Positions 14,495 through 33,445 of a stretch of DNA of 64,000 nt are shown in pieces (within the stretch, counting starts at the first letter, position 1; the number at the start of each line of letters is the position of its first letter). A program made the translations under genes and the position numbers. The notes beneath the pieces were generated by a model. The model saw only the letters and a program-made list of their open reading frames with translations. It searched no databases and was not told the origin of the DNA. Source of the DNA: Pseudoips prasinana (lineage: Eukaryota > Arthropoda > Insecta > Lepidoptera > Nolidae). Location of the stretch: positions 15,821,201-15,885,200 of the forward strand of contig OX621257.1 in the NCBI GenBank assembly GCA_951640165.1. Reading direction: 5' to 3'.

Positions 14495-15020
14495 CAGAAT
14501 ATAAATATGACAATATTTTCTGTGATCAGAATAAGTTTTTGTACTAGTTAACTTTATGTCTATATTATTATTAACATATTATAGATATCATGAGAAATTT
14601 AGATATTCAATTTAAATGCGTACATTTATCTTAATTCGACATTCATGTATGTTGTATGATATGTATATATGTGCATTCTACTTTTCATCGCCGTCAAATA
14701 ATTACATCTATTCAATACTTCATTCAATAACAGTTAATCAAAAGAATGATGGAGTAGTCAACTTTAAGTCTATTCATTCATCATTAACTTTCAACATTAA
14801 TATGAAAGTTTCAAATTTTTCATCGTTAAATTATTATATTATTTCAACAATTCAATGACACGCGCATGAAATGTCGAGCAACAGTCGGGATCTGTTCCAC
14901 ACGACAACGAAAATGGAATGGGCCTCACTATTGTCCATCACGCCGCCTTATATATAGCGCAGTGGCTACTTACTTTAATTATAATGACGGAGAAATAAAA
15001 AGCAAAGTACCTAATATTGA
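14495..15020. other. Left subterminal non-coding region of the Polinton
   Basis: AT-rich region between the inverted repeat and the 3' end of the leftward gene. A plus-strand open frame at 14616-14858 (80 codons, low-complexity AT-rich translation) is not supported as a gene. A TATATATA stretch at about 14951-14957 could serve a rightward promoter but no gene follows it. Confidence 0.4.
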
Positions 15021-15052
15021 TTTATTTATATAGGATGATTATATTATAAATA

Positions 15053-16131: not shown

Positions 16132-17310
16132 GCAGTTGAGAAAAATCGACAGGCAAAGTCATTGTATATAGCTAGTATGTCAAACATTATATTTTTTGCA
16201 ATGTATGTGGTTATTTATAAGGAGAAGATCAAAACAATATACTTAGCAATATCGACATACTATTGTTACGTTCGGTTTCGTCTGCTATTATTGTAATATT
16301 TAAGCTTATTTAATTGGTACATCACAAATAGAATGGTAAGTAATGCTTTTTATTCTTATTTGTACATACTATTACGGTTTATAGATATATCTATACTTCT
16401 ATCAAGATTTGCACGGATTAAACATATTTTATATAATACTTCGAAAACTATCTTTCAACTTTGCTTTAAACAATATTATGGAACATAACAAATCTTGACT
16501 TGACTTGATTAAAAACCCTCTATAAAAATAACCCTATAAAAAGTACCCTGAACCGGCGAGCATGTATGAAGAATATAATGTCAGTAAAGGAAGCGTGGGA
16601 GGTGTGCAAGGATCGTGACAAATGGAAGTCCGTTGTCTCTGCCTACCCCTCTGGGAGACAGGCGTGAGTCTATGTATGTATGTATGTTGTTTACTAAAAA
16701 TATCATATATAAAATAAATACCACAATGTGTTTGTTCATTGTATTTTTTTCATACATGCAGTTGAGAAAAATCGACAGGCAAAGTCATTGTATATAGCTA
16801 GTATGTCAAACATTATATTTTTTGCAATGTATGTGGTTATTTATAAGGAGAAGATCAAAACAATATACTTAGCAATATCGACATACTATTGTTACGTTCG
16901 GTTTCGTTTGCTATTATTGTAATATTTAAGCTTATTTAATTGGTACATCACAAATATAATGGTAAGTAATGCTTTTTATTCTTATTTGTACATACTATTA
17001 CGGTTTATAGATATATCTATACTTCTATCAAGATTTGCACGGATTAAACATATTTTATATAATACTTCGAAAACTATCTTTCAACTTTGCTTTAAACAAT
17101 ATTATGGAACATAACAGATCTTGACTTGACTTGATAAAAACCCTCTATAAAAATAACCCTATAAAAAGTACCCTGAACCGGCGAGCATGTATGAAGAATA
17201 TAATGTCAGTAAAGGAAGCGAGGGAGGTGTGCAAGGATCGTGACAAATGGAAGTCCGTTGTCTCTGCCTACCCCTCTGGGAGACAGGCGTGAGTCTATGT
17301 ATGTATGTAT
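16061..17310. repeat. Tandem duplication, two ~626-bp units
   Basis: Units 16061-16686 and 16687-17310 are nearly identical; differences seen include single-base changes near 16281/16907, 16332/16958 and 16599/17222 and a one-base indel. Each unit ends in a TATG microsatellite and a short RT 3'-end fragment (see 16540-16686). Unit 1 contains exon 1 and the presumed promoter of the leftward gene, so unit 2 carries a second copy of that promoter and exon. Confidence 0.95.
16540..16686 (+). mobile_element. Small non-LTR 3'-end fragment inside the Polinton (and copy at 17165-17310)
   Basis: The plus strand reads a conserved non-LTR C-terminus: CKDRDKWKSVVSAYPSGRQA, stop, then a TATG tail. A related segment lies on the minus strand at 41030-41140. 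It must have inserted into the Polinton before the 626-bp duplication, because both units contain it. Confidence 0.7.
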
Positions 17311-17610
17311 AAAAATAACAGTTGATAAGCAAATTACCGTCTTTTGCTTCACGCAGTCGGGTAAAATTAATCATAACACAAATCGTCTGGATGCGGATAG
17401 CTGACACTGCATTTTCACAACACGTGCCTCTATCCATATTTGGGATACTGTGACGTAGATTTAGCACTATTTAAGGGTCCTGCTGCTGAAGTTGGACCAC
17501 AAAACACTTCTTCAAGAGCTAGTGTCATCATCGTGTACGAGTTAATCAGTACCTAGTTTATTTCTATTACAAGTACCTACACCAGTTCTTCGCTGCGCTA
17601 TTTAAAAAAT
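17311..17610 (+). promoter_or_regulatory. Presumed promoter and 5' UTR of the PolB transcription unit
   Basis: The region precedes the first exon, which ends at 17610. A TATA-like CTATTTAAGG lies at 17467-17476 and an arthropod initiator-like TCAGT at 17546-17550, but their spacing is not canonical, so the exact start is uncertain. The divergent leftward gene starts upstream, so this may be part of a bidirectional control region. Confidence 0.4.
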
Positions 17611-18668
17611 GTAAGTGACGTTGTTTTATTGCCTGTGTATTCGTATTACCTATTCAAGTATTCTAATATATTCTCTTTTGTCGAGTGCTAGCAATCTTTA
17701 CAATTGATCATGAAGCCTTGGGTTCGATACCCAGATCGTACAGTGTTGCTAGTATTTCACATTTAATGAGTAGATATAATGTAGTGAAGATATATTATCA
17801 TATTATGTTATGTAACCATTCTTATATTCAATGATTTATCATTATTCAATCATTCATCATTTAATTTTAATCAAACGATGAATAATTGAATAATGAACTT
17901 GAATTAAATAAATGATTCAGAATTCAATATAACGATAATCATTTATCTGTTGTTAAGTTGTTCTATTAATGGAAGGAAAATAATGAGAGGAAATCTTCAT
18001 AGGTACTCTTACAGATATTCTCAATCATGTTTAAAGCCATTACACACTTACATGCAGGGATTAAACTTTAACAGAACGCTAGCTACTAGATAATCGATAA
18101 GAAGATTGATAAATTGTCACTATTATTTATAGTTAATAAAACTTTCTATTTTTCTTTCAGGTCTAAGTGTAATGCAGAGCAGCTTTTCCCGTCTGAGGAT
18201 GAGTCGGTGTCGGAAACCGTGGCGGTAAAGGCAAAGCCGGAGAAAAAGAAGCGCAAGTCGTCGCATGAGTCCACCAGCCAGCCATCATCCAGCAAGAAAA
18301 CGAAGCCAACCACTAGACCGACAGCCCACGATTTATTCGGAAGCGATTCTGATGACGATAACTTGCCGGCAACAACGGGTAAAAGCTTTCAACCAATCTA
18401 CTCTTATATTACACGTAGATTGGCGAACGGTTTTTCGAGGCAAATGGATGAAAACAAATCAGGCAGTTATTACATAGAATTAAAGATATATAAGTGTGAT
18501 GACATTGAACGAGTGCCACCGCTAAATAGGTGGCGCCACTCAGTCATAACAATTAAAAATAAGTGTGAAAAGGAATCTGAGTCTTGGAAACACTTAACTG
18601 AATATGTTAAGAGTGTTAGAAAAGAGTTTCACGACTGTCCATGCACGTTTATTAATTCGTATCAGTAA
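17609..18668 (+). CDS. Short alternative product of the PolB locus (unspliced second intron)
   Basis: The start codon is split by an intron: AT at 17609-17610, a GTAAGT donor, and G at 18161 after TTTCTTTCAG. Reading on without further splicing gives about 169 residues ending at 18668. The first 73 residues are shared with PolB: an acidic/serine-rich leader, a KKKRK nuclear-localisation-like cluster, and an acidic DLFGSDSDDD segment. The remaining ~96 residues are unique, with four cysteines. An AATAAA at 18759-18764, inside what is otherwise the PolB intron, would allow early polyadenylation. The unique part matches no family I recognise. The open frame across the donor could be chance, but its length and composition look protein-like. 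Confidence 0.5.
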
Positions 18669-21600
18669 TAATAATCAATTATTTGTCCTACGAACTTATA
18701 TTATACCTAAAAGTACATGTATACCCAAATGTAGTGTTACTTATTTGTACTTACTTAAAATAAATACCTATGTTATGCTCTATTATAATATAGTTAATCA
18801 TTATTTACAATCATTATAATTAACACATAATCAATATTGTTTAATCACTATTATATCTTTTTCTATTTTTTCATTAAATATTCCAAGTTACTGTATTTTT
18901 TCTTTTCAGTTCAACCACCTGTTAATTCATCATCAAGCGCTAATATTATTTATTGTGATAAATGCAAAATTGAGATCCCAGTACATGAATACAGATATCA
19001 TAAGAGAACTAATATTCATAAATCAAACTGTTTAATTAAATCGTCATTTTTGAATGTTGATATTATAGCCACAGCGTTTAAAAATAGAATAATGACTTAT
19101 CGCTTAAATCCATCTCAAGAAGACGAATACCTTCTAGCGGAGGCGTTTTTAGATGGTAAGCGAGACGATGTTTTTAAAATTATTGAATTGACTTTATTGA
19201 AACATGACTGTATCAAAGTGAACTTCGAGTTGTTTGCTTATTTTGTGTTACCCGTATCAGGTGAGCAGCAACTGAAGTCATTTAATACAAAATATAAAAC
19301 CATATACGAAAATACTGATTGTGATGAGTTATATTCAAATATAAAAGAGATTTATATAACGAAATTAACTGAATTTGAGCATTGCAAATCTGGATGGGCA
19401 TTTATGTCTGTAAGTCATTTAGAAATTAATATTAATAAGTATTCACCCATGCGAGGTGGATCTTATATCGACTTGCCAGCTAAAATTAAGAATACAAATA
19501 GCTGTTTGAACATACAAAATAGTGATAATTGCTGTTTTTTGTGGAGCATAGCTGCAGCGTTATTTCCGGCTAAAAATAACGTCTGTAGACCTAGCTCGTA
19601 CCCAAATGTGAATTCAATATTTAATACACAGGGTATGTCATTTCCACCATCACATAAAGATATTCAGTTGTTTGAAAAAAATAATTCCGAAATAAGTGTA
19701 AATATTTACGGATTAGACAAGCATCATACTGTTACTGGTCCTTTATATGTTACCAATAACAAGAGAATTAAACACGTTAACTTGTTGTATTTAGAACAGA
19801 ACTGCAGCGCCCATTACTGTTTAATTAAAGACCTTAAGCGTCTAGTCAGAAGACAGGTATCACATCATAAAGGTGCAATGTATTTATGTGAAACATGTCT
19901 ACAGTTTTATACTAGTGAAACAAAATACGCTTCACACAATTGTTCTAAGATTATAACGATATTACCAGAAAGAGATAGTTTTTTAAAATTCAAACATTAT
20001 GAGAGACAGCAAAAAATTAACTTTGTTATATATGCTGATTTCGAATGTTTATTATCTGATTTTAAAGAACCAAATCCCGATAAAAGTACTGTAAGAAATA
20101 AATGTCACCAACCATCTTGTTTTGCATATTATATATGTTGTTCCCATGACAGGAGCTTGAATAAATTTGTTTCATACAGAGGAATAGATTGTGTACAAGT
20201 ATTTATCAAAAAAATTATTAAGGACGCACAGTTAATTCATAAGATTTTAATAACAAAAAAACCCATGAAACCAATGACTAAAGAACAAATTAACGATTAT
20301 TGTAGTGCAACTATATGTCACATATGCAAGCAGTTGTTATTTGACGATAAAGTCCGTGATCATGATCATATTACATCTGAATATAGAGGTGCAGCTCATT
20401 CGCATTGTAAAATTTCATTTAAAGTATGTCCATTCATACATGTTATATTTCATAATTTATCTGGTTATGATGCCCACATATTTATCACGGAATTGTCTCA
20501 ATACGAAGGTGAAATAAAAGTTATTCCCAAAACAAAAGAAAAGTATTTATCCATAACGAAAATTATAAAATCAGATAACAATAGAATGCCTGTACAAATT
20601 AAATTTATAGATTCTTTTCAGTTTCTTAGTTCGAGTATTGATACATTGACTAAAAGTTTATCCGACAATGATTTCGTGCATTTGTCCTCCCATTATTCTG
20701 ACAAGGACCAATTCGATTTAATAAGAAGAAAAGGTATTTATCCGTATGAATATATTAATTCATGGCAGAAATATAATGAAACCGAACTACCATCAAAAGA
20801 TTGTTTTTATAACAGCTTGTTAATGAAAGATATAACAGATCATGAATATAAACACGCACAAACTGTTTGGAAATATTTTAATATTGGTTCTATTGGCGAG
20901 TACACTGATCTATATTTAAAAAGTGATGTACTTTTGCTCTTTGATGTATTCGAAAATTTTAGGAACTTATGTTTAAACAATTATAATCTTGATCCTGCAT
21001 ATTATGTTACTTCACCTAGTTTAAGTTGGGATGCTATGCTTTTTTACACAGGCGTTGAACTAGAGCTGATTAATGATTTAGAAATTTATCAAATGTTAGA
21101 AAAAGGAATCCGTGGAGGGCTGGCACAGTGTACCATTACTAACATTTACTTACCTCAATTTGATGATTCCAAACCTTCAACATATTTAATATATCTTGAC
21201 TGTAACAATCTTTACGGTTATGCTATGACAAAGAAGTTACCCACATCACATTTTAAATTTATGGAACAGAAGAGTATTGAGAATTTTAATTTGTTCGATA
21301 TTCCTGACGATGCTGACAACGGTTATATTTTAGAAGTTGATATGATGTAGCCAGATTATTTACATAATTTACATAGTGACTTGCCATTCGCTCCCGAAAA
21401 ATTTATACCTATTGGAGGAAAGACACCTAAATTAATTGCTAATTTGTATGACAAATATAATTATATAATACACTACGTTCATTTGAAGGAATGTCTTAGA
21501 AATGGTCTAGTATTAAAAAAAATTCATAGAATACTTCAATTTCGACAAGACAACTTTTTAAAAACATATATAGACTTAAATACTAAATTACGGCAAGCAG

Positions 21601-22433
21601 CATCAACACCATTTGAAAAAGATTTCTTCAAGCTATTAAATAATTCAATATTCGGCAAGACAATCGAAAACAAACATAAACAGGTTGATGTTAAATTAGT
21701 TACTAGATGGAATGACAGCTCTAATAAAACTAATAAGTCACTGGGAGCAGAGAAATTGATTACGAAACCAAATCTAAAAAGTATTTCTATTTTTAACGAG
21801 AATTTTATCGCAGTGCAACTGAGTCATGAAAAGCTTATTTTAGATAGACCGATATATATTGGATTTGCTGTGCTTGAATACTCAAAACAACATTTATATA
21901 ATTTCCATTACAATTTTATAAGACATAGGTATGGTGATAATGCCAAACTATGTTATACTGACACTGATAGCTTACTGTACTTAATACAGACACCTGATTT
22001 TTATAAAGATATGCAAGATAATATAGATGAATTTGACACTAGCAATTTTGACGTTAATAATCCTTACGGCATACCAAAAGTGAACGAAAAAGTACCTGGC
22101 TTATTTAAGGACGAATTGGGAGGTGATATAATCATGGAATTTATTGGATTAAGAGCAAAACTTTACTCTATTAAAACGCTGAATACACAAATTAAAAAAG
22201 CAAAAGGAGTGTCAAAGCCAATTACTAAAAGTTTGGATACATCCAACTATAAGGAAGCATTATTTAACAATGTTGAATTAAAGCGTAAAATGAATATGAT
22301 TAAATCCATTAAACATATATTGTATTCACAAGCAGTTGATAAAGTAATTTTGAAAAGAGTTGATGACAAAATACAAGTTCAGTCGAATCAAATAAATACG
22401 CTACCTTGGGGTCATTGTGACGGTGTCATGTAA
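17609..22433 (+). CDS. Polinton DNA polymerase B, spliced, interrupted by one in-frame TAG
   Basis: Family-B, protein-primed-type DNA polymerase that replicates the element. Exons: 17609-17610, 18161-18378 and 18910-22433. The donor at 18379 (GGTAAAAG) and the acceptor TTCTTTTCAG at 18909 join in matching phase. Visible motifs: a zinc-finger-like CDKC...H...C near the start of exon 3; exonuclease motif YADFECLL; an HNH-like CHIC...RDHDH...H..C block; polymerase motif A DCNNLYGYAM (GAC at 21198); motif B NNSIFGKT; motif C YTDTDS. The frame is interrupted only by TAG at 21348-21350, at a place where relatives have an aromatic residue before proline, and then runs open to 22433 (about 886 + 360 codons). 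It is the first gene of the rightward set. The lesion suggests recent inactivation, though readthrough cannot be excluded. Confidence 0.9.
21348..21350 (+). other. In-frame TAG in PolB
   Basis: A single TAG separates two long segments that are in the same frame and carry consecutive PolB motifs. The codon is one base from a tyrosine codon. No other stop or frameshift was seen in 3.5 kb. Confidence 0.9.
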
Positions 22434-22950
22434 AAGCTTTAGATATAAAATATATACTTAAATCTAATTTGTAAATGTAATATCTGTATGTCTTTTTTTC
22501 ATTAAATCGATGTAAACACTATTTTTATTTGTAAAATGTTCCTAAAACCCTGTTTAGACTAATATGTTCATTTTGTTTTTAATTAATTTTAGGCATATAA
22601 AACGATTATAATTAAATAACATATATTTATCTTTTAAACCTGTTTTTTATTATTGTTATTCATTATAGTGGTGCCCTATTTAATCTATAAGATGAGTATA
22701 GTTTGTTTTTGCACTCAAGACATTCTTAAATATATTTTATTTTTAAATTTCTAACTTAATTTATTTGCATAAAATGTGGTTAAAAAGATGGTACATATTT
22801 AATATGAAGGTCAGTCACATACGCTAATAAGTTGCATATGCAGGTAGGTATATGGTTAACCTACATCCTCTGTGAAAAATGGCGTGAGTGCATGTATGTA
22901 GGTATATATATATATATGAATGTTAAATAACATTTGAATTAATCGACAAA
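22434..22950 (+). promoter_or_regulatory. PolB-ATPase intergenic region with TATA repeat
   Basis: 517 bp of AT-rich non-coding sequence. ATTAAA at about 22502 could be the PolB polyadenylation signal. A TATATATATATATA run at about 22902-22917 lies some 35 nt upstream of the ATPase start and may be its TATA box. Confidence 0.5.
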
Positions 22951-23637
22951 ATGAAGTTGATCAAGCAACCCATATCCCTAAGTGTTAATAATATAAAATT
23001 AAGTGACTCTGTTCACCACATCAGACATAGCACTTTGTTGCCGAATAACATTCGCTGTATAATATGCGGTCCGTCGAACTGTGGTAAAACAAATGTTATG
23101 ATTAGTTTACTGCTGCATGAAAATGGGCTCAAATTTAGAAATCTATATCTTTACTCTAAGACTTCTTTTCAACCTAAATACCGTTTCTTGACTGAAGTAT
23201 TGAAAAGAGTACCCCAGGTTAATTTCTATGAGTTCAATGATCATAAAGATGTCATTTCTCCAAGTGAAGCTTTAACAAATTCTGTATTTATATTTGATGA
23301 TGTTGCATGTGAAAATCAAGTGAATATCCGCAATTATTTCTGTATGGGTCGACATAAACGAATCGATTGTTTCTATTTATCTCAAACCTATTCTAAAATT
23401 CCGAAACAATTACTACGTGACAATGTTAATTTAATTATAATATTTAAACAAGATGATGTGAATTTAAAACATATTTACGAAGAGCATGTTAGTTCTGATC
23501 TACAATGGAAACAGTTCAAAAACATTTGTCAAACTGTTTGGAGTAAGCCTTACAATTTTTTACTTATTAACAAAGAATCATCATTAAATAATGGACGGTA
23601 TAGGCAGAACTTTGATATATTTTTTAAATTTGACTGA
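22951..23637 (+). CDS. Genome-packaging ATPase (FtsK/HerA-type)
   Basis: The 228-residue protein has a Walker A motif GPSNCGKTN at residues 40-48, a Walker B motif VFIFDDV at 112-118 and a sensor-like LSQTYSKIP at about 143-151. These are the hallmarks of the A32-like packaging ATPases that pump genomes into capsids in Polintons, adintoviruses and nucleocytoplasmic large DNA viruses. Length fits the family. The ATG at 22951 (AAAATGAAG) is the first in frame. It is intact and would act on newly made capsids, consistent with capsid genes downstream in the element. Confidence 0.9.
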   Translation: MKLIKQPISLSVNNIKLSDSVHHIRHSTLLPNNIRCIICGPSNCGKTNVMISLLLHENGLKFRNLYLYSKTSFQPKYRFLTEVLKRVPQVNFYEFNDHKDVISPSEALTNSVFIFDDVACENQVNIRNYFCMGRHKRIDCFYLSQTYSKIPKQLLRDNVNLIIIFKQDDVNLKHIYEEHVSSDLQWKQFKNICQTVWSKPYNFLLINKESSLNNGRYRQNFDIFFKFD

Positions 23638-23640
23638 TGT

Positions 23641-23680
23641 TATATAAATATAAGTGTGTTACACACAGAAAAAAATCAGT
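23641..23680 (+). promoter_or_regulatory. Candidate promoter: TATA box plus TCAGT initiator
   Basis: TATATAAATATAAG (23641-23654) is followed about 30 nt later by TCAGT at 23676-23680, then the ATG of the next gene at 23728. TATA plus TCAGT at this spacing is the standard arthropod core promoter and is also used by baculovirus early genes. Confidence 0.65.
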
Positions 23681-23727
23681 ATTATTTATTCTTTAGCTGA
23701 AAGTGGTTGTTATAATATTAAATAGGT

Positions 23728-24642
23728 ATGGAGAAAAATATTAAAATAGAATTAATGAAGTCTGTAGACTCCATAAAGAATAAAATAAAACAAATGAAAA
23801 ACCAGGAACACTCAATGAATTTGTCACTCGATAAAATGTTAAAACCTGTCACAGATCCCCTTAAAACCCTAGTTGATTCGAATAAAACCATAGAAAAAAT
23901 ACAAAATTTAGAAAAAACACACTCTAATTGTGACGACATCGAATTGGATGACATTAATACTAGCTCATCTACAAAGTTTGAAGACTGCTATGATCCGAAG
24001 CTGAAATCGGCACAGTTCACTGAAAAGTCTCCCGCAACGGAATTACTGGAAGATTTAGAAATATCATTAGAGGGTCGTGATATCCATGATATTTATGATG
24101 GTGTAAATATACCATTTGGAATAAGAAGTGAAAACAAAAATTTACTAATGGGTAATTCAATAGTTTCATTTTCTAAAATGGATAGTTTGAATGACGATAA
24201 TGCCATTTTTATTAAAGTTGGTGACAAAAACTACATTTTAACCCCTGGTTTAAAAGAACTTTTACTTCGAAGAAAACCTGATTTAAAACTAATATCGAGC
24301 AAAGATAAACTTGTCTATAAGGATATGTTATATTATACAAATGCACATAAGAGAGATTTTAATCCTAATGGGCAAATTAGAGGCGATAAAGGTATAAAAT
24401 ATCGTGAAATAATCAAACCACTGTTTTCCGAATCCTACAATAATGTTATCACTAAAGGAGGAAGCTTACCAACCCTGAAAAAGTACAAAAATAACACTGA
24501 CTTGGTATATTGGGATAATCCTAACGAACTGGTTGACAGATTGAAGCTATTAATTGCTTCCAGAGATGCTGGTAATACAAACCATGATAATGAAATTTTA
24601 TCTATAATCGAAGAATTAAAAGAAGCTGACATAATTAAATAA
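23728..24642 (+). CDS. Conserved Polinton protein of unknown role (304 aa)
   Basis: The N-terminal ~70 residues are charged and lysine/glutamate-rich with coiled-coil character; an acidic linker follows. The C-terminal half is globular-looking, with FIKVGDKNYILTPGLKELL near residue 160-180, repeated basic/aromatic stretches, and a C-terminal block YWDNPNELVDRL...LLIAS...IIEEL. I recall similar C-terminal blocks in hypothetical proteins of other arthropod Polinton-like elements, but no enzymatic motif is visible. Its position between packaging ATPase and integrase suggests a virion or replication accessory role; this is inference. The frame is intact, starts at ATG 23728, and has its own candidate promoter just upstream. 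Confidence 0.8.
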   Translation: MEKNIKIELMKSVDSIKNKIKQMKNQEHSMNLSLDKMLKPVTDPLKTLVDSNKTIEKIQNLEKTHSNCDDIELDDINTSSSTKFEDCYDPKLKSAQFTEKSPATELLEDLEISLEGRDIHDIYDGVNIPFGIRSENKNLLMGNSIVSFSKMDSLNDDNAIFIKVGDKNYILTPGLKELLLRRKPDLKLISSKDKLVYKDMLYYTNAHKRDFNPNGQIRGDKGIKYREIIKPLFSESYNNVITKGGSLPTLKKYKNNTDLVYWDNPNELVDRLKLLIASRDAGNTNHDNEILSIIEELKEADIIK

Positions 24643-24679
24643 TAAATAAATAGTCATAATAATATCCTTTTTATTCAGT
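24641..24679 (+). promoter_or_regulatory. Candidate promoter before integrase: AT-rich box plus TCAGT
   Basis: AATAAATAAATAG (24641-24653) is followed by TTCAGTATTAT with TCAGT at 24675-24679, 41 nt before the integrase ATG at 24720. The downstream TATTAT is shared with the initiator at 23676. Confidence 0.55.
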
Positions 24680-24719
24680 ATTATAGTTGAATTCAAGACA
24701 AATATACCGAATTGTAAAC

Positions 24720-25646
24720 ATGAGCAAAGCTAACGTGATTAACGAAATTCATAAAAATGTGAGGGTGAACTATCCCCGAAGACATGTTATTATGAAAGAT
24801 ATAGATGACCTGTGGCAAGCAGACTTAATTGATATGCAATCAATTTCAAAAGAAAATAAAAATTACAGATATATTCTAGCCGTTATTGATACATTTTCGA
24901 AATATGCTTGGACCTTTCCTATAAAAAGTAAATCCAAAGAAGACGTGTGTAACTCTTTCAAAACTTTGTTGGATAAAGGGCGTATTCCTAAAAATCTGCA
25001 AACGGATAATGGAACAGAATTTTATAATAATAAATTTCAAAAACTTATGAATTCTTATAATATAAACCATTATTCAACTTTCTCAGCAAAAAAGGCATCT
25101 ATAGTTGAGCGATTTATCAGAACATTGAAATCTAAACTGTATAAGGAGTTTAGTTTAAAAGGTGACTATAACTGGGTAGTTAACACCCTTAATAATGTTA
25201 TTTACGAATACAATCACACCTATCATCGGACTATTGATGAAATCCCCGCTAACGTGAATAATATTAATAAAGAACGCATATTAGGGAGATATTTCAGGTT
25301 GATAAAAACCAATAAGATAAAAAACAAATTTAAAGTTGGTGATTATGTGCGTATCAGTAAGTACAAAGGAACATTTGAAAAAGGATATACCCCCAACTGG
25401 TCGACAGAAATATTTAAAATTCGAAAAATACAATATACAACTCCTATCACCTACTTAATTGAAGATACAATCAGAGGTCAGCCCATTTTAGGTGCATTTT
25501 ATGTACAAGAGCTGCAAAAGACAAAATATCCCAATTTATATCTAGTCGAGAAAGTTCTTAGAAGAAAAGGAAATAGGGTTTTAGTAAAATGGTTAGGTTT
25601 GTCTTCTTCTGAAAACAGTTGGATTGACAAGTCGAATATTTATTAA
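24720..25646 (+). CDS. Polinton integrase with C-terminal chromodomain
   Basis: Retroviral-type DDE integrase that inserts the element and makes the 6-bp duplication. From the ATG at 24720 the product is 308 residues. The catalytic triad is visible as D35 (QADLIDM), D96 (QTDNGTEF) and E130 (ASIVERFIRTLK), giving a DD(33)E spacing. A basic SH3-like region with FKVGDYVRISKYKG follows. The C-terminus (about 262-308) is a chromodomain (LVEKVLRRKGNRVLVKWLG...W), which in related integrases and in chromoviruses binds histone marks and biases target choice. Upstream in-frame codons are open but start with TTG and would lie partly before the candidate initiator, so the ATG is preferred. Intact. Confidence 0.92.
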   Translation: MSKANVINEIHKNVRVNYPRRHVIMKDIDDLWQADLIDMQSISKENKNYRYILAVIDTFSKYAWTFPIKSKSKEDVCNSFKTLLDKGRIPKNLQTDNGTEFYNNKFQKLMNSYNINHYSTFSAKKASIVERFIRTLKSKLYKEFSLKGDYNWVVNTLNNVIYEYNHTYHRTIDEIPANVNNINKERILGRYFRLIKTNKIKNKFKVGDYVRISKYKGTFEKGYTPNWSTEIFKIRKIQYTTPITYLIEDTIRGQPILGAFYVQELQKTKYPNLYLVEKVLRRKGNRVLVKWLGLSSSENSWIDKSNIY

Positions 25647-25670
25647 GTGTTCATCCCATGATGCATCAGT
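25636..25670 (+). promoter_or_regulatory. Candidate promoter before the PLA2-like gene
   Basis: AATATTTATTAAG lies about 30 nt upstream of TCAGT at 25666-25670, which is itself only 3 nt before the ATG at 25674. If used, the 5' UTR would be very short, with the next ATG at 25677 as alternative. It overlaps the 3' end of the integrase gene. Confidence 0.4.
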
Positions 25671-25673
25671 CTT

Positions 25674-26462
25674 ATGATGTGTTTTGGAGAGAGTAGTCTT
25701 CTCAATTGGCTTATAAATAATTTACCATTTGAATTACATTTACCAAGATACAATTATTGTGGACCTGGCACTAAATTAATAAAAAGGCTTTCACATGGAG
25801 ATAAAGGCATTAATAAATTAGACGAATATTGCAAAGATCACGACATTGCCTATCATAATTCTTCAAACTTAAAGGATCGCCATAAAGCAGATTTAGTTTT
25901 GTTAAATATGGCGAAAAAGCGAGCAGTTGCCCTGGATGCGAGTGTAGGGGAAAAACTTGCAGCACGTTTAGTAAGCAAAGCTATATTAACAAAAATTAAA
26001 ACTGGTTCTGGTCTAAAAAAAGGTAGCAAAAAGTGTTGTCCAAAAATTACATCTGGAAATGGTTTGAAAAATAAATTTAAAAATGTTATTAGCAAAACAA
26101 AAAGACATATAAAAAAATTAAAACCAAAATGCAAAAAGGTGGCGATAGAATTAGCTATGGCCGCTACCAGAGAATTAGCTAATGATTCGTCCATTAAACT
26201 TCCTCGTGTTATTCCTATACCAAAATCTGGTGGAGTATTACCTCTGATTCCTATTTTTGCGGGATTATCTGCGGCAGGCGCTCTAGCAGGTGGTGCAGCT
26301 GGTATTGCTAAAACCATAAATGAATTCAAGATGGCAAAAAAGTTGTATGATGAATCGAAGAGGCACAATGAGAAGATGGAGGCTCTCTGCATCGGCAAAG
26401 GACTACACCTTAAACCACATAAAGATGGGCTCGGAATTTTCGTATCGAGAGAAAAAAACTAA
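25674..26462 (+). CDS. PLA2-like, pVI/pX-like minor virion protein
   Basis: The 262-residue protein begins with a phospholipase-A2-like domain: calcium-loop-like YNYCGPGT at 26-33 and DEYCKDHDIAYH at 50-61 with the H56-D57 pair. This is the arrangement found in parvovirus capsid proteins, where the enzyme opens endosomal membranes. A lysine-rich middle and a hydrophobic, glycine/alanine-rich segment (about 187-213, GLSAAGALAGGAAGI) followed by FKMAKK and a C-terminal GKGLHLKP...GLGI block resemble the membrane-active minor capsid proteins of adintoviruses. The gene ends GAA AAA AAC TAA, a -1 frameshift heptamer abutting the stop, with the protease in the -1 frame. Confidence 0.85.
   Translation: MMCFGESSLLNWLINNLPFELHLPRYNYCGPGTKLIKRLSHGDKGINKLDEYCKDHDIAYHNSSNLKDRHKADLVLLNMAKKRAVALDASVGEKLAARLVSKAILTKIKTGSGLKKGSKKCCPKITSGNGLKNKFKNVISKTKRHIKKLKPKCKKVAIELAMAATRELANDSSIKLPRVIPIPKSGGVLPLIPIFAGLSAAGALAGGAAGIAKTINEFKMAKKLYDESKRHNEKMEALCIGKGLHLKPHKDGLGIFVSREKN
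26453..26462 (+). other. Candidate -1 ribosomal frameshift site (A-AAA-AAC then TAA)
   Basis: Bases 26453-26459 are A AAA AAC in the zero frame of the PLA2-like gene, immediately before its TAA. A one-base backward slip continues with CTA at 26459 into the protease frame, which is open from 26423. This heptamer is one of the strongest eukaryotic slip sites (used by some retroviruses at gag-pro). I could not see an obvious strong stem or pseudoknot downstream by eye. Confidence 0.6.
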
Positions 26463-26833
26463 AATACCGGCTACCTAAACGAGCTTTGAGTAATTTGGAC
26501 ATTTTGAAGTATGGAAATAATATTCCCTATTTTAGAGGTGTCTTTATGAGAGATGAGCTCCCTAAATACCCTTTTAAAAAAGAATGTGGAGTTATTAATT
26601 TAGATAGCTCTAAAAATCATGGTTCTCATTGGGTAGCCTATGTAAAATACAATGATTATATTGAGTATTTTGACAGTTATGGAAATCTTAAGCCTCCAAA
26701 GGAATTTATAAAATACGTGGGTTCCAAAGTTCACTATAATTATGATAATATTCAGCGTGATCATCCTTTTAATTGTGGACATCTTTGTTTAAAATTTTTG
26801 AAGAATTTTTGGTATAATGAAAGAATAAAATAA
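26459..26833 (+). CDS. Adenain-like cysteine protease, probably expressed by frameshift
   Basis: Maturation protease of the adenovirus proteinase family, expected to cleave capsid precursors. Visible catalytic residues, counting from the TTG at 26486: His48 (GSHWVAYVK), Asp63 (YFDSYG), Gln90 and Cys97 (FNCGHLCLKFL), in the order of adenain. The conserved fold appears to start before the first ATG (26546): NNIPYFRGVF lies upstream of it, and open frame in this register continues back into the preceding gene to 26423. No ATG is available there, which fits entry by -1 frameshift at 26453-26459; initiation at 26546 would cut into the domain. Length (~115 residues downstream of 26486) is short but typical for Polinton proteases. 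Confidence 0.88.
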   Translation, partial: LKYRLPKRALSNLDILKYGNNIPYFRGVFMRDELPKYPFKKECGVINLDSSKNHGSHWVAYVKYNDYIEYFDSYGNLKPPKEFIKYVGSKVHYNYDNIQRDHPFNCGHLCLKFLKNFWYNERIK

Positions 26834-26860
26834 ACAGAATCTTGCAAAAGAGTTCAGTAT
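26824..26860 (+). promoter_or_regulatory. Candidate promoter of the capsid gene cluster
   Basis: An AT-rich AATAAAATAAAC (about 26824-26835) lies roughly 30 nt before TTCAGTATAC, with TCAGT at 26854-26858 and the penton ATG at 26867. It is the only such motif before penton, the 48-residue ORF, capsid and the terminal gene, which are joined by stop/start overlaps. Confidence 0.5.
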
Positions 26861-26866
26861 ACGAGC

Positions 26867-27277
26867 ATGCCTACTACGGTTACCATCTCTGGAAATAAAT
26901 CGGAACTGGTTACATACTTTCAACCACCACTACATTTATCTGATCAATACGAGTGCGGTTTGCTATACTTTTCAGTATTAAATTCAACACCAAATATTCC
27001 CATTGATAACAGCAGTCTATCTGTGATCAGAATTGAATGCGATCTTGTTTACGGTTCCTACTGCAACGGATTACCAACTCATTTCATTCATGAATTTGTA
27101 TCTGATATTACTCCAGCTCATCAGTGCATAGAAATACCGCAAAACGTTATTTACTATCCAATAAACAAAAATATAATTTCATCTATATCTGTTAGGATTG
27201 TTAATCAATTTGGTCACTGTATTAACTTTGGGGGCGAATATATTCAACTACGTCTTCATTTAAGAAAATCAAAATGA
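26867..27277 (+). CDS. Penton / minor capsid protein
   Basis: The 136-residue protein is rich in beta-strand-like alternation and matches the size of the single-jelly-roll penton (minor capsid) proteins of Polintons. Supporting segments are ECGLLYFSVLNSTPNI in the first third and VRIVNQFGHCINFGGEYI near the C-terminus, followed by a basic tail. It would fill the five-fold vertices of the virion. ATG at 26867 follows a TCAGTAT initiator by 9 nt. Its TGA (27275-27277) overlaps the ATG of the next ORF (27274-27276) as ATGA. Confidence 0.75.
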   Translation: MPTTVTISGNKSELVTYFQPPLHLSDQYECGLLYFSVLNSTPNIPIDNSSLSVIRIECDLVYGSYCNGLPTHFIHEFVSDITPAHQCIEIPQNVIYYPINKNIISSISVRIVNQFGHCINFGGEYIQLRLHLRKSK

Positions 27278-27420
27278 TAGTATACTATAAAAACATCCCA
27301 GTGAAAACAAAACGTCTTAGTTCTTGTACGATTGCCAAAGTGCAAAGACCTAGGAAAAAAGTTAAGAAATTGACTGAAGCAAATAAAGATTTTCTTATAG
27401 CTCTAGGGTTTAAAGTATGA
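27274..27420 (+). CDS. 48-residue basic protein between penton and capsid
   Basis: A short open frame (ATG 27274, TGA 27418-27420) encodes a lysine-rich peptide with QRPRKKVKKLTEANKDF and a hydrophobic FLIALGFKV end. It overlaps both neighbours by ATGA. Its exact fit between two capsid genes and its strong basic character argue that it is real; a small DNA-binding or capsid cement/core peptide is possible but unproven. It resembles short lysine-rich peptides next to capsid genes in other Polintons as far as I recall. Confidence 0.75.
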   Translation: MIVYYKNIPVKTKRLSSCTIAKVQRPRKKVKKLTEANKDFLIALGFKV

Positions 27421-28382
27421 ATATACTACAGATTACCGAATTACCGCACTTCGATACTTCGATTGAAAGTTATGAAGTCCATTCATACAATCCCTACAAT
27501 AACAGCTTTAGAGAAAATGATGAAATCAGAATTCCCATACACCAACAAGACATATACGTGCTACCATCGGCCAGTTCAATTTACATCGAAGGCCAAGCAA
27601 AGCTTTTCGGTAAAGATGGGAATCCGATCAAGAAAACTGTTACGTTCACTAATAACCCTGTTATGTATCTGTTTCAAGACATCAGATATGAAATGAATGG
27701 TATTGAAATTGACCGTATAAAAAATTCTGGAATAACATCAACAATAAAATCATACATATCATTGAATGAAGCAGAAAATAGAGTCGCCGCCTTATGGGGT
27801 TGGAACTTAGAGGGGTTCCAAAGTGATGGGCATTTTAGTGCTGTGATACCATTAAATAAGTTATTAGGGTTTGCAGAGGATTATAACAGAATTGTAATAA
27901 ATTGTAAACATGAACTTATAATGAATAGAAGTAACTCTAACCTAAACAGTGTTATTCTTACTGATGATATTACTCATTTTGAAATAGATATACAAAGAGT
28001 TCAATGGAGGGTTCCCCACATAAAAGTTTCAGATCGAGAGCGACTGACACTTTTAAAACATTTAGAAAGAGATAAACCTATTCAAATGGCTTTTAGGAAT
28101 TGGGATTTATATGAGTATCCATTACTTCCTAAAACCACAAAGCATTCTTGGTCAAATAAGACTGCTTCACAATTAGAAAAACCTAGATATGTTATTTTTG
28201 GCTTACAAACTAATAGAAAAAACAATAAAACTAAAGACAGTTCAATATTTGATCATTGTGAAGTGACAAACGTTACTCTCTTTTTGAACTCACAATATTA
28301 TCCATATGAACCTATGAGTTTAAAGTTTCTCGAGAACAAATACAATATATTATATGAAATGTATGTGTATTTTAAGAGATAA
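27417..28382 (+). CDS. Major capsid protein (double jelly-roll type), 3' part displaced
   Basis: The first ~315 residues match the Polinton/adintovirus hexon-like major capsid protein: N-terminal DTSIESYEVHSYNPY and a strand-rich region with MYLFQDIRYEMNGIEIDRI, LWGWNLEGF and VQWRVPHIKVSDRERL. The ATG (27417-27419) overlaps the stop of the preceding small ORF. The natural 3' end is missing from this frame: around 28350-28380 the sequence switches to a partial copy of the downstream gene, and a stop follows at 28380-28382. The rest of the capsid gene is found at 28759-29060. As it stands a truncated capsid would be made. Confidence 0.85.
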   Translation: MNILQITELPHFDTSIESYEVHSYNPYNNSFRENDEIRIPIHQQDIYVLPSASSIYIEGQAKLFGKDGNPIKKTVTFTNNPVMYLFQDIRYEMNGIEIDRIKNSGITSTIKSYISLNEAENRVAALWGWNLEGFQSDGHFSAVIPLNKLLGFAEDYNRIVINCKHELIMNRSNSNLNSVILTDDITHFEIDIQRVQWRVPHIKVSDRERLTLLKHLERDKPIQMAFRNWDLYEYPLLPKTTKHSWSNKTASQLEKPRYVIFGLQTNRKNNKTKDSSIFDHCEVTNVTLFLNSQYYPYEPMSLKFLENKYNILYEMYVYFKR

Positions 28383-28617
28383 ATGTATCTATACTAAAGG
28401 TTTAGAAAAAGTTTTATGGCTAAAAACTATTTTAGAAAATAATAATAAGAATATATATAATTTAGAAGACAGGGGTTGCCCTAATTTCTTAAGCTTGTAT
28501 GATCAATATAAAGGTTGTAATGATTTGTATAACTGTATTTATCATGACTCTGTATGTGCTTTGAAGAATGTATTGTGTTTAAATAAATGGTGTTATGATA
28601 ATAAAATTTTTAAATAA
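28354..28617 (+). pseudogene. Partial duplicate of the terminal gene (C-terminal half)
   Basis: Translation gives (I/L)YTKG.(E/K)KVLWLK.IL, then CALKNVLCLNKWC near the end, paralogous to residues ~88-160 of the gene at 29057-29539 in the same order and to the same stop position. It is fused to the interrupted capsid gene at about 28350-28380. Moderate divergence from the downstream copy indicates that the duplication is not very recent. Confidence 0.8.
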
Positions 28618-28758
28618 ATATTTTCTTGTTTAATTATAAACTTTTTAAATCCCCATCCATATTTTTATGTTAATGCAAAGTAACATTCAACAAATTACCC
28701 ACCCACATCGTCAGGTGTGCATAAAAATTTTATGGTTTCTGACAGATCTAGCAAAAGT

Positions 28759-29060
28759 TTTAAAGTTTTCTGAGAACAGATACAGTATATATTATGCGCA
28801 GTCGTATTACAACTGTCTAGTGGACCCGTTGCTTAACTTAAAGGACTTCAAGAAAAAAGACCCCTCTCTTTATATTAGACTGCTCAAGGCAAAACGACAG
28901 TCTAAAAACAGGTCCAGTTGACGTGCTGTTGGAAATTGAATGTTCTACACCTACGATACGATAAGACCTCTACGATAAGACGACTACATATTATTTAATT
29001 ACAAACGATCGACTTGTGGAATACAAACCTTTGAGTAATATTGTGAGAAAATTATCATGA
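28759..29060 (+). pseudogene. Displaced 3' part of the major capsid gene, frameshifted
   Basis: Starting near 28759 the frame gives LKFSENRYSI.Y, repeating the end of the upstream capsid segment, then SYYN...DPLLNLKDFKKKDP. An indel in the A-run at about 28853-28858 shifts the frame; after it DCSRQND and KTGPVDV continue the capsid C-terminus. An in-frame TAA at 28962-28964, next to a small CTACGATA duplication, is a third lesion. The final segment (DRLVEYKPLSNIV) ends at TGA 29058-29060, which overlaps the ATG of the last gene as ATGA. Confidence 0.8.
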
Positions 29061-29539
29061 ACGTTATTGTGGATGTCCAAGGGTTTAAGAATGAAGGAAA
29101 CGAATTTATTCCCAAAGAAATTGCATTAATATGTAACGGTCGTATACAAGTACTTTTAATAGAACCACCACGACCATTTTATGACTTAACGAAGAAGGAA
29201 ATGTTGCAAGTAGCTTGGGTAGAAAAAGACAGAGGAATAAAGTGGGATGAAGGTTTTATATCATATTTTAACTATAAATCTATGCTTTATGGTATGTGTT
29301 TAAGAAATAAATCGTTATATACAAAAGGTGAGAAAAAAGTGTTATGGTTAAAAAAAATCTTACAAATAGATAATGTTTATAATTTAGAAAATAAAAACTG
29401 TCCTAGTTTAGTAACATTGTATAAGAATTATTCAACTTCTCCTGATATTTTAAGCTGTTTGCAACATAATAATATATGTGCTTTAAAAAATGTGTTCTGT
29501 TTAAATAAGTGGTGTATAGAAAATAAGATATTTATTTAA
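29057..29539 (+). CDS. Terminal Polinton gene of unknown function (160 aa)
   Basis: An intact 160-codon frame. The N-terminus reads NVIVDVQGFKN, then FIPKEIALICNG and LIEPPRPFYDL; the C-terminal half has KVLWLKKIL, NCPSLVTLY and CALKNVFCLNKWC. The D-x-Q/PKEIAL opening and the H-x4-AL motif loosely recall the first and last motifs of DEDD-type 3'-5' exonuclease folds, but the acidic residues are not convincing, so that is only a hint. ATG overlaps the capsid stop. A partial paralog lies at 28354-28617. The gene ends 142 bp before the right inverted repeat. Confidence 0.75.
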   Translation: MNVIVDVQGFKNEGNEFIPKEIALICNGRIQVLLIEPPRPFYDLTKKEMLQVAWVEKDRGIKWDEGFISYFNYKSMLYGMCLRNKSLYTKGEKKVLWLKKILQIDNVYNLENKNCPSLVTLYKNYSTSPDILSCLQHNNICALKNVFCLNKWCIENKIFI

Positions 29540-29681
29540 GACTTTTTTAAAGTAAATAAAAACTCTATTTGTATTACTTTGTAGTCTTATTTATGTAAAA
29601 CCTATAATTTGAACATTAAACAGTGTCAACCGCTCTTCGAACACACATAACAGCCCTTGTCTGTTACCATGAAACTCGATT

Positions 29682-29784
29682 AATAATAAACAGCTACTTG
29701 TTCATTCCTTGAATATTATGAATGATGGGTAAATTGGGTGTTTCTGGATCTCCTCTGATCCAGAAACCCCAATTTACACCTACT
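29682..29784 (-). repeat. Polinton right terminal inverted repeat (103 bp)
   Basis: Reverse complement of 14392-14494 with three substitutions; ends ...CCCCAATTTACACCTACT. It contains the mirror hairpin at 29729-29777. Confidence 0.97.
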
Positions 29785-29790
29785 GTGGCG
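29785..29790. repeat. Polinton target-site duplication, right copy (GTGGCG)
   Basis: Exact repeat of 14386-14391, directly after the last base of the element. Confidence 0.95.
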
Positions 29791-30214: not shown

Positions 30215-30759
30215 GTTCGCAGCACGAGCAATAGCCAATATAAAAAATATTGCAGAAATATTTAAACAACAGTTTTATATAACTTCACCCTTAGGCCCGT
30301 CGACTTCGAAGGTGCTGGATACTGGGTTTCATAGTTCCGGGACGGTAAGAATTACAGCCAAAATGGTGGCTCACGCTATCAAGCGTATAAAGAGAGGCAA
30401 ATCTCCCGGCCACGATGGCCTCAGTATCGAGCACCTTATACATGCTGGACCCCACATTGCACGAGTACTGGCCATATTTTATTCACTCTGTTTAAGCCAT
30501 TCGTATTTACCTCTAGATTTAATGAAAACAATTGTCGTGCCAATTGTGAAAAACAAAACAGGTGACTTGTCTAGTAAAGCAAACTACAGGCCCATTTCAT
30601 TAGCAACTGTGGTAGCTAAGGTGCTTGACAGTGTGCGTGATGTTCAATTGGACCAGTACGTAAAGCTACATGATAATCAATTTGTTTTCAGACCACAATT
30701 ATCGACGGAAAGCGCCATTTTGTGCTTGAAGCACACTGTTAAGCACTATACGAAGTTAA

Positions 30760-33445
30760 GAACTATATGAGATTTTTTATATGAGTTGTATGACAGAAGG
30801 TCCTATAACCCTGATGTCAATTTTATTAATTATGTTAGAAATTATTCAAAATTTTTTTAAAAGGTTTGCATTCAAGCTAAATCTTTATATATAAGAGATA
30901 AAATTAAAAAATCTGATAATAAAATAAAATCAGCTTGGCAAATAATTAATACTGAAACTGGTAAAAGTAGATCAAGAGATCAAACATTAGTATTGAATAT
31001 TGGTGATGAACTGGTTTCAGACAAGCTTACCATTGCCAATTTTTTAGCTGCCTTTTTTGCAAATATACCCGTGGATATTACTAAGTGTCTCGCATCATCA
31101 CCAGATGTGGCTGAACTCTTTTTAAATCAAAGCGTAAAACAAACTGTGCCTAACTTTAGTTTTAAATCCGTAACAAGTGATGATATTATAAAAGCTTTTA
31201 AGAGTATTAAAAGGAAAGGCACAGAAGATTTGTGGGGACTGTCTGTTAAAGCAATTGAACCAATCATACTAAACATTGCTACAATCCTTGCAGCCATCTT
31301 CAATGGCTGTATAAGTGATGGTGTCTTTCCCGATTTAATGAAAATAAGTAAGATAATACCCATTTTCAAGGCAGGTTGTTCAAAAAATGCCACGAATTAT
31401 AGGCCTATCTCAATACTGCCAGCTTTAAGTAAAATATTTGAAAAGCTGATGCTCAGCCAAATGTTGTCGCACTTTAACGTGAATGATATATTGCATAACA
31501 AGCAGTTCGGGTTTACAAGGGGCCGCTCTACTCAGGATGCAGGTTGCACATTAATTAGGTCAATATTGGAGGCTTGGGAGGGATCACAGGATGCGCTGGG
31601 AGTTTTCTGTGATCTCTCTAAGGCTTTCGATTGCGTTGATCATCGTACGCTCGTTGTTAAACTGAAGTACTATGGAATATCTGGCACATCTCTTGATCTT
31701 GTGATGTCCTATTTATCGGGGCGACAACAGATGGTTTCGATAGGCGGTGTCACTTCGGCACGTCATCCTGTGAAAATGGGGGTGCCCCAAGGATCTATAT
31801 TGGGCCCATTTTTATTTCTAGTTTATATAAATGATCTCCTTTATCTGGTAGAGAAAGTATCAGACATAGTTTTGTTCGCTGATGATACGTCGCTCATATT
31901 TAAAGTAAATAGAAAGGATAAAGATCTTATTGAGCATAATAAAACACTCAGCTTTATATCAGAATGGTTTTCGGCAAATAATCTCTTGCTAAATGCAGGG
32001 AAAACTAAATGCATCAGGTTCTCATTGCCGAATGTGACTCAAATTGTACCAACAGTTGCACTTAATGCAAAAATATTAGATTTAGTCCCATCGACCGTAT
32101 TTTTGGGATTGACACTTGATTCAAAATTGCAATGGGGTCCTCAGATTGAAAAGTTAGCAGGTAAATTAAGTCCGGCTTCCTATGCTGTCTGGAAAATAAG
32201 GCAATTGTCAGATGAACAAACTGCTAGATTAGTGTATTTCGCGTACTTTCATAGCATTATGTCGTATGGCATTCTGCTGTGGGGTTCGGCGGCTGACATA
32301 GGTACTATTTTTGTATTGCAGAAAAGAGCAGTCAGAGTCATTTATGGTTTCGGCAGTCGCGATTGTTTGCGAAATTTGTTTAAAGAAATAAATATACTTA
32401 CTGTGCCATCGGAATATATATATCAGAATATAATGTTTGTTAGAAAAAATATTCATAATTATAAAAAGAAAAGTGAACTGCATAATATAAATACTAGGAA
32501 TAAAAACAAACTAGCCATGCCAGGCTTTAGAGTAAGCAAAACTAATAAATCATTTTTAGGAAATTGTATTAGGTTTTATAACAAGCTTCCTACTCAAATT
32601 ACTGATCTGCCTGACACAAGTTTTAAAACACATATTAAACGTATACTTATGGCTAGGGGTTATTACACCACTAAAGAGTACATCGATGACAAAGACGTCT
32701 GGCTCTCACTTCCTACCTGCACATTGCTCGCTGGAGATCTTGTAGCCATATAGACATGACTGATCTGCTGTGTTACGTGAACTATCTGTAAATGATTGCT
32801 ATCATATACTTAATTTAAAATTATTGACTCTGTCTCAAAATGAATAATGTTATTGTTTCGAAGTTTTTCTTTTGTATACCTAAATATAATCTAAAATAAT
32901 AAGCATTCAGACAACCGATCGAGCATATATTGTGTTTGCCTACTAAATAATTACTCTAATTGGACCAAATCCCGTGTTCATGCCCGCTTGAGTATGTTTC
33001 GCCGGACCGTCTCAACTGGGTCGTGTTGAAACCGGTAGTAGATGAACCCACTGAGTTTGTTTCGCTGGGTCTTCTCAGTTGGGGCGCATTGGATCCGGTG
33101 GTAGCATTAAAGCGCGACCGTCGTTATTAACACAAGGTCCGTCATAATAATAATACCTTTAATATAGACAGAACCATTGACAATATGTAGTAAAAATATT
33201 AGACTCAAACTAGATAATTAAACATAATCTCTTGACAATAACTTGATACGAGCTTGCTAAATATCATTTCTGTAATAAAATAAATTTTATAAATGTTTTC
33301 ATACAAGATGTACCTAAATATCTATGTTACTAGAAATAATATCTAATGTATACAACTATATTACTACAAACATGTTCTGACTATTTACAAGCGCTTTTTT
33401 AAAGTCTACGTGAATAATAACCTTTTTTATTTTATTTTATTTTAT
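30760..33445 (+). mobile_element. Jockey/CR1-like retrotransposon B, 5'-truncated, inside RT A
   Basis: It begins within an RT linker region and contains a long RT frame (30993-32753). About 690 bp of 3' UTR follow, ending in a TTTTA-repeat tail at about 33424-33447. The 3' UTR part (32990-33440) recurs 5'-truncated on the minus strand at 35860-36335 and 44640-44945, as expected of a non-LTR 3' end. The element interrupts RT A precisely. Confidence 0.7.
30993..32753 (+). CDS. Reverse transcriptase of element B
   Basis: A 586-codon open frame whose visible RT blocks are NYRPISILPALSKIFEKL, FCDLSKAFDCVDH (motif A), MGVPQGSILGPFLF (motif B) and VLFADDTSLIF (catalytic centre), then VFLGLTLDSKL. 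A C-terminal FYNKLPTQITDLP block is typical of Jockey/CR1 elements. The frame extends open upstream to about 30870 without an ATG and lacks the apurinic endonuclease, so this copy is truncated; the RT domain itself seems undamaged. Confidence 0.85.
   Translation: MNIGDELVSDKLTIANFLAAFFANIPVDITKCLASSPDVAELFLNQSVKQTVPNFSFKSVTSDDIIKAFKSIKRKGTEDLWGLSVKAIEPIILNIATILAAIFNGCISDGVFPDLMKISKIIPIFKAGCSKNATNYRPISILPALSKIFEKLMLSQMLSHFNVNDILHNKQFGFTRGRSTQDAGCTLIRSILEAWEGSQDALGVFCDLSKAFDCVDHRTLVVKLKYYGISGTSLDLVMSYLSGRQQMVSIGGVTSARHPVKMGVPQGSILGPFLFLVYINDLLYLVEKVSDIVLFADDTSLIFKVNRKDKDLIEHNKTLSFISEWFSANNLLLNAGKTKCIRFSLPNVTQIVPTVALNAKILDLVPSTVFLGLTLDSKLQWGPQIEKLAGKLSPASYAVWKIRQLSDEQTARLVYFAYFHSIMSYGILLWGSAADIGTIFVLQKRAVRVIYGFGSRDCLRNLFKEINILTVPSEYIYQNIMFVRKNIHNYKKKSELHNINTRNKNKLAMPGFRVSKTNKSFLGNCIRFYNKLPTQITDLPDTSFKTHIKRILMARGYYTTKEYIDDKDVWLSLPTCTLLAGDLVAI

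Follow-up and report, generated by a model that had tools for sequence, protein, structure and literature searches.

Conserved stop/start overlaps and a candidate frameshift site in the virion genes of a lepidopteran Polinton

How might a eukaryotic DNA transposon translate virion genes that meet as overlapping stop and start codons? The question is raised by a 64,000-nucleotide (nt) stretch of the Pseudoips prasinana genome (contig OX621257.1, positions 15,821,201 to 15,885,200), called here the window, in whose own numbering positions are given below. It carries a 15,393-bp lepidopteran Polinton/Maverick at 14392-29784, with inverted repeats and a target-site duplication. An earlier note on this DNA had singled out four of its genes, encoding penton, a 48-residue protein (orf48), the major capsid protein (MCP) and a terminal protein, as a group linked by three ATGA stop/start overlaps. 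We favour, with a probability of roughly 0.45, the reading that these genes would be expressed from one transcript by coupled termination-reinitiation.

All four open reading frames (ORFs) and all three ATGA overlaps were found where the earlier note had placed them. The features of this region are as follows.

26867-27277, + strand: penton (minor capsid) gene, by order ORF6 of the Sf Mavericks (gene order in the main text of PMC5803895)
27274-27277, + strand: junction 1, ATGA, penton/orf48
27274-27420, + strand: orf48, gene for a small basic protein, 48-49 codons in the lineages read, recognized by the ratio of nonsynonymous to synonymous substitution rates (dN/dS) across lineages
27417-27420, + strand: junction 2, ATGA, orf48/MCP
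27417-28382, + strand: MCP gene, double jelly roll (PF21738, E 8.1e-87), its 3' part absent in the window copy
28368-28373, + strand: 6-base stretch common to both flanks of a 487-bp absence, from comparison with the sister copy L002
28374-28617, + strand: what is left of the first terminal gene (its 3' part), fused to MCP, with AATAAA at 28613
28757-29059, + strand: second MCP 3' end, a broken remnant whose left limit is approximate
29057-29060, + strand: third ATGA of the earlier note, in the second tail
29057-29539, + strand: second terminal gene, 160 amino acids (aa), predicted DnaQ/RNase H-like fold by fold match

The penton-orf48-MCP chain of ATGA overlaps is more than chance. When the 15,393-bp element was shuffled 500 times (first-order Markov), an ATGA-joined pair of ATG-started ORFs of at least 48 codons appeared in three shuffles, and a chain of two such joins, as in the real element, in none. 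The overlap at 29057 stands outside this count because the remnant preceding it is no ATG-started ORF. The element also has one ATGA-linked out-of-frame ORF inside MCP (27472-27696), which is surely due to chance.

The genome search gave 124 scored MCP matches among 351 candidates; 73 capsid regions (L001-L073) were read, and the junction counts refer to these. They were assigned to lineages A (20 regions), A' (2), B (23), C1 (3), C2 (20), D (2) and E (3), whose limits are our own grouping by identity. At least 124 MCP and at least 150 penton matches were present (for penton, 150 scored of 350 candidates), many with equal scores: several Polinton lineages have expanded recently within this single genome. 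Since many copies are recent and near-identical, lineages weigh more than copy counts.

Junction 1 was an exact four-base overlap in 64 of the 73 regions; the remainder had a 17-base overlap in the other frame (both A' and both D copies), were unreadable (two of B) or had no penton match (the three of E). The exact overlap recurred at junction 2 in 68 of the 73, with a one-base gap, UAAAAUG, in all three E copies and two regions (L019 and L041) that escaped the search motif though ATGA is present. At junction 3, between MCP and the terminal gene, it was found in 65 of the 73, the window's second tail included as one. Here the search motif missed L040, L041 and L069, which have ATGA at the terminal start, L021 read ATGT, and L007, L015, L016 and L046 gave no usable motif pair. 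Every lineage whose junction 3 was read has ATGA there.

A comparison with other Polinton copies, suggested in the earlier note, bore out the arrangement: in sister copies the series runs from penton through orf48 and MCP to the terminal gene, and each of its three joints is ATGA. The same holds for lineage F, which has the most divergent penton (~50% identical), and lineage G has ATGA at junctions 1 and 2, its junction 3 lying outside the stretch read. Among D-like copies, L080 showed the D pattern again and L081 was decayed, with junction 3 not recovered. The lineages that keep the overlaps differ at MCP synonymous sites (proportion of synonymous differences, pS, 0.40-0.82). Because diverged lineages, F included, share them, all three ATGA junctions would most simply be ancestral here. 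In lineage E (L071-L073 and L077) the protease leads directly to the orf48 region with no penton between, and L077 carries a foreign stretch within ORF2.

All 62 terminal-gene homologues listed have Met followed by a residue with an A-initial codon (N in 40, S in 8, K in 7, I in 3, T in 3 and R in 1), two of them with the start called further upstream. A tree of 67 terminal proteins, comprising 60 of these homologues (the two with upstream starts were dropped) and seven proteins from the host genome, required at least 16 second-residue changes, all within the A-initial set. The chance of this pattern is ~5e-4, a rough figure that supposes that 5/8 of single-base amino-acid changes stay in the set. 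For MCP, 117 of the 120 homologues listed were full-length, and 91 of these have N, S or T as the second residue. MCP scans of viral contigs and genome contigs for relatives outside the host genome yielded none that was confirmed, and phage records yielded none.

One claim of the earlier note, that the third overlap had survived the breakage of the capsid gene, turned out to be wrong for the window copy, as the ATGA at 29057 belongs to a second, diverged tail. Window 26400-28373 corresponds to positions 484-2457 of L002 and window 28368-29389 to positions 2939-3960, both at 99.7% identity; the window lacks 487 bases of L002, among them the MCP end and the start of the first terminal gene. In L002, which belongs to lineage A, an uninterrupted MCP of 401 aa, the length also found in lineage representatives, joins the first terminal gene through ATGA at 2703, and this gene is followed by AATAAA, a broken other MCP 3' end, ATGA and the second terminal gene. 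In the window, the first terminal gene is reduced to its 3' part and the second tail is kept, the 29057 overlap joining the remnant of the second MCP end to the second terminal gene. The capsid gene's own junction 3 is visible in other copies only. The second tail (28757-29539; L002 positions 3290-3960), ~69% identical to the first tail in L002, would stem from an old duplication or from recombination between lineages.

Promoter-like motifs and a polyadenylation signal around the unit were located at the following positions.

25666-25670, + strand: TCAGT promoter-like (initiator-like) motif, 8 nt before the PLA2-domain gene
26854-26858, + strand: promoter-like TCAGT, its first base 13 nt upstream of the penton ATG, the only conserved motif of this kind found for the four-gene unit
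29555-29560, + strand: AATAAA, 16 nt past the terminal gene

That one promoter-like motif precedes the group was confirmed, the TCAGT at 26854 being kept in other lineages: in A, B, C1, C2, D, F and G the first base of TCA[G/T]T lies 11-13 nt upstream of penton, and CCAGT takes its place in A'. The motif, which we take to be the arthropod initiator (Inr), also lies 8-11 nt before the PLA2 ATG (TCAGT in A, B and D, TCATT in C2) and 45-52 nt upstream of ORF2 and the integrase gene in A and B, with none within 90 nt of these two in C2 and D. No TCA[G/T]T stands directly upstream of orf48, MCP or the terminal gene. Four of the five unlinked window genes (ORF2, integrase, PLA2 gene and penton) have TCAGT within 52 nt, and the window ATPase has none within 90 nt. 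Distances between neighbouring genes of the window fall into two classes: -4 within the four-gene unit, where the motif is lacking, and 27-90 nt between unlinked genes. A bacterial-type promoter scan (18 found vs 15.6 in shuffles) was not informative for this DNA.

From the conserved genes, overlaps, promoter-like motif and spacing, we infer a single transcript with reinitiation. A single Inr-type promoter directly before penton would drive the whole four-gene unit, and orf48, MCP and the terminal gene would be translated mainly through coupled termination-reinitiation at the stop/start overlaps. The stop/start overlap or closeness that marks a termination-reinitiation unit is conserved.

Several observations weigh against this reading. 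The overlap is dispensable, since A' and D are without ATGA at junction 1 and E is without it at junction 2, and 26 of the 117 full-length MCP homologues begin with ML, which is incompatible with ATGA and makes their start resemble that of lineage E. The order is awkward too: MCP would come third among the cistrons, although it is presumably made in the largest amount. The search for 18S-complementary motifs upstream of the junctions, proposed with the original claim, gave no UGGGA and one UGGGG; the UGGGA-type motif was absent from the 120 nt upstream of 21 junctions in seven lineages, although divergent motifs are possible. Consensus folds upstream of junctions 1, 2 and 3 had z-scores of 0.42, -2.31 (8 of 200 shuffles as good) and 0.74, with no conserved RNA fold at junctions 1 and 3 and a weak one at junction 2. 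Sense AATAAA was above the codon-shuffle expectation in six of seven lineages (penton of D and E excluded) and is therefore not depleted inside the unit. Likewise, TCAGT inside penton, orf48 and MCP exceeded that expectation in all seven lineages, mostly slightly (~1.7 standard deviations in B and E), which leaves room for internal promoters. Thus, of the polycistronic mRNA with termination-reinitiation proposed earlier, the conserved overlaps, the one motif and the unit-like spacing stood, and, because neither an 18S-complementary motif nor a convincing fold was found, the reinitiation unit is favoured rather than proven.

The undepleted AATAAA and the excess of internal TCAGT would suit an arrangement in which every gene is transcribed separately, its promoter lying within the gene ahead of it, and in which the overlaps reflect tight packing only; MCP could then be the most abundant product. 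Own promoters within preceding genes are usual in compact DNA viruses, and TCAGT occurs inside penton at 26972 and 27121 and, in six of the seven lineages, 243 nt before the terminal gene. The TCAGT at -243 was rejected as a promoter, however: it sits in conserved Arg-Gln-Ser codons, is absent in C1, and is followed by an ATG before the terminal gene in six of the seven lineages. Nor is there a drop in MCP synonymous divergence over its final 30 codons ahead of the terminal gene, where no synonymous constraint was seen. The 27-90 nt spacers kept between unlinked window genes mean that packing is not maximal, and tight packing alone gives no reason for an overlap of exactly four bases. Separate promoters are possible, if somewhat less probable than the reinitiation unit.

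The conservation of the four-base overlap would also be left unexplained if one shared leader were spliced to different acceptors, each ahead of one of the genes, for which adenovirus late mRNA offers the precedent. Acceptor-like stretches can be picked out by eye upstream of MCP (e.g. TTTTCTTATAG), and one Maniola MCP record carries the name isoform X3, but such stretches are common in AT-rich DNA and we consider a spliced leader improbable. Alternatively, orf48 and MCP could share one mRNA, with ribosomes getting to MCP either through leaky scanning beyond the orf48 start or by an internal ribosome entry site. orf48 indeed has no internal ATG in any of the seven lineages, yet only 0 to 0.41 ATG are expected there given its amino acids and codon use, so the absence is no signal, and codon shuffling led us to reject it as a sign of leaky scanning. 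With an orf48 start context at least equal to that of MCP (by eye), and with 2 to 11 ATG between the penton and orf48 starts in the six lineages that have penton, this route seems improbable. A -1 frameshift from penton into orf48 was likewise rejected: the window penton has no in-phase XXXYYYZ heptamer, and the MCP frame has a stop two codons upstream of the MCP ATG. The natural variants (ATGA, the 17-base overlap and UAAAAUG) could separate the mechanisms.

Termination-reinitiation at an AUGA or UAAUG overlap is known from caliciviruses, influenza B virus and the HvV190S totivirus. The reinitiation unit proposed here has the same type of overlap, but in a eukaryotic DNA element, as a chain of three, with no 18S-complementary motif found and with reinitiation as the putative mechanism. 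If true, it would be an operon-like unit in a eukaryotic DNA element, and it predicts a conserved 48-residue basic protein.

A further joint between virion genes lies upstream of penton.

25674-26462, + strand: PLA2-domain virion gene (CAP in the Sf Mavericks), PF08398, E 5.4e-13
26453-26459, + strand: slippery heptamer A_AAA_AAC, in phase, directly before the PLA2 stop TAA at 26460-26462
26456-26833, + strand: adenain-like protease frame (-1 relative to PLA2) that is open from the slippery heptamer on and has no ATG ahead of the conserved N-terminal region

The PLA2 gene ends in ...GAA AAA AAC TAA, with the protease in the -1 frame. A protease motif was readable in 70 copies (3 of the 73 loci lacked it), and in 66 of these 70 A_AAA_AAC with TAA stood in phase; in three E copies the script took a later heptamer, the TAA-adjacent A_AAA_AAC being visible too, and in L057 the heptamer was absent. 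The heptamer occurs in all lineages read and precedes sense codons in D, TGA in F and TT in G, whose PLA2 gene is decayed; the heptamer of lineage F matched a prediction set down before its sequence was fetched. In lineage representatives the protease frame has no ATG before the conserved region, and it is closed 10-11 codons upstream in six of them and directly upstream in D. From the slippery site to the first Met, the pooled ratio of nonsynonymous to synonymous differences (pN/pS) of six lineages was 0.30 in the protease frame vs 2.77 and 1.67 in the other frames. GGCTACC, starting 9 nt past the heptamer, is invariant in the six aligned lineages and present in D, with AGCTACC in F. A short GGCU hairpin past the heptamer formed in five of six single folds (z from -3.34 to 0.69), and the alifold consensus had a z of -1.67 (14 of 200 shuffles as good).

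From the site, its phase and the protein selection on the -1 frame, we infer the slip itself: ribosomes would slip -1 at A_AAA_AAC, making a fusion of PLA2 protein and protease. On sequence grounds, expression of the two genes by -1 frameshifting is very probable, the evidence for recoding being stronger at this joint than at the ATGA junctions. If true, the fusion would carry the protease on a minor virion protein and keep the dose of the enzyme limited. In retroviral gag-pro, A_AAA_AAC couples a structural gene to the protease in the -1 frame. Heptamer and layout are the same here, but in a DNA transposon/virus, with an adenain-like cysteine protease and a stimulatory pseudoknot that is only a candidate. 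A preprint on adintoviruses gives, in its passages on slippery sites, KnotInFrame predictions of such sites near penton 3' ends and of hexon-adenain fusions (PMC11071296); in contrast to those candidates, the heptamer described here links PLA2 gene and protease, is accompanied by selection specific to the frame and is conserved across lineages. It is possible, and we suggest it tentatively, that lepidopteran Polintons use RNA-virus translation rules for both: a -1 frameshift fusion of PLA2 protein and protease, and a polycistronic RNA for penton, orf48, capsid and a Maelstrom/DnaQ-fold protein.

According to the main text of PMC5803895, Sf Maverick 1 and 2 of Spodoptera frugiperda have the order ATP, ORF2, INT, CAP (PLA2 domain), PRO, ORF6, ORF7, ORF8 and are transcribed. 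Gene order is the same and sizes are similar in the window element, but no counterpart of orf48 is among the genes given there; that main text does not contain the terms overlap, polycistronic, start codon or in-frame, and frameshift is used in it twice, both times for errantiviruses. Titles and abstract openings of mainly open-access literature on Polinton/Maverick translation contained no report of an ATGA unit or a PLA2-protease frameshift. Polinton particles had not been observed as of PMC8097293, in its passage on this point.

The protein identities vary in kind. Judged by its dN/dS of 0.15-0.57 in 20 of 21 lineage pairs (one pair was not computable), its length of 48-49 codons in the seven lineages compared and in F, and the C-terminal FL..LGFK kept in those seven, the 48-codon ORF is a real gene; a protein search found no homologue. 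Penton had no Pfam match, and its name is carried over from the earlier note. The protease gave no Pfam match and weak matches only (African swine fever virus S273R, E 0.055; adenain, E 0.44), and is called adenain-like by its place in the gene order, as in PMC5803895. The DnaQ/RNase H-like assignment of the terminal protein comes from the fold match, which would place it near exonucleases, Maelstrom (PIWI-interacting RNA pathway) and the arenavirus nucleoprotein, with predicted fold-level relatives in ichnoviruses and Drosophila-associated adintovirus 2. The protein has an invariant E/CxxH/C set. Neither searching PDB sequences with its profile nor scanning 32 members against Pfam turned up a convincing match, and a Maelstrom model was not among the matches.

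On the + strand, the element carries in order two pieces of a polymerase-like ORF, then ATPase, ORF2, integrase and the PLA2-domain gene, and after these protease, penton, orf48, MCP and the terminal gene. The integrase matches rve (PF00665) and a chromodomain (PF00385), both above the Pfam cut-off, as does the A32-like packaging ATPase (PF04665, E 4.8e-6). The two polymerase pieces, within 19092-22433, matched no Pfam family above the cut-off; they presumably represent a protein-primed DNA polymerase B, judging from gene order and motifs. The polymerase-like frame (18831-22433) is broken by a stop at 21348-21350. An Rfam scan of 25600-29700 gave no match. The window is a piece of lepidopteran chromosome, with MCP homologues from Maniola, Plutella and Bicyclus among the protein matches. 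The ends of the element are as follows.

14386-14391, no strand: left target-site duplication GTGGCG, 6 bp, the same six bases standing at 29785-29790
14392-14494, + strand: left terminal inverted repeat, 103 nt, 97% complementary to 29682-29784
29682-29784, - strand: right terminal inverted repeat, 103 nt, pairing with 14392-14494

Near its left end the element contains a tandem repeat with a ~625-bp unit (16061-17310, 99% identity). Directly to the right of the Polinton, reverse-transcriptase-like ORFs at 30216-32753 point by eye to a further retroelement. At 45664-51021, two long successive ORFs, the one containing CCHC and the next endonuclease/reverse-transcriptase-like by eye, reach a GC content of up to 64%, unlike the AT-rich surroundings, and probably belong to a retrotransposon without long terminal repeats.

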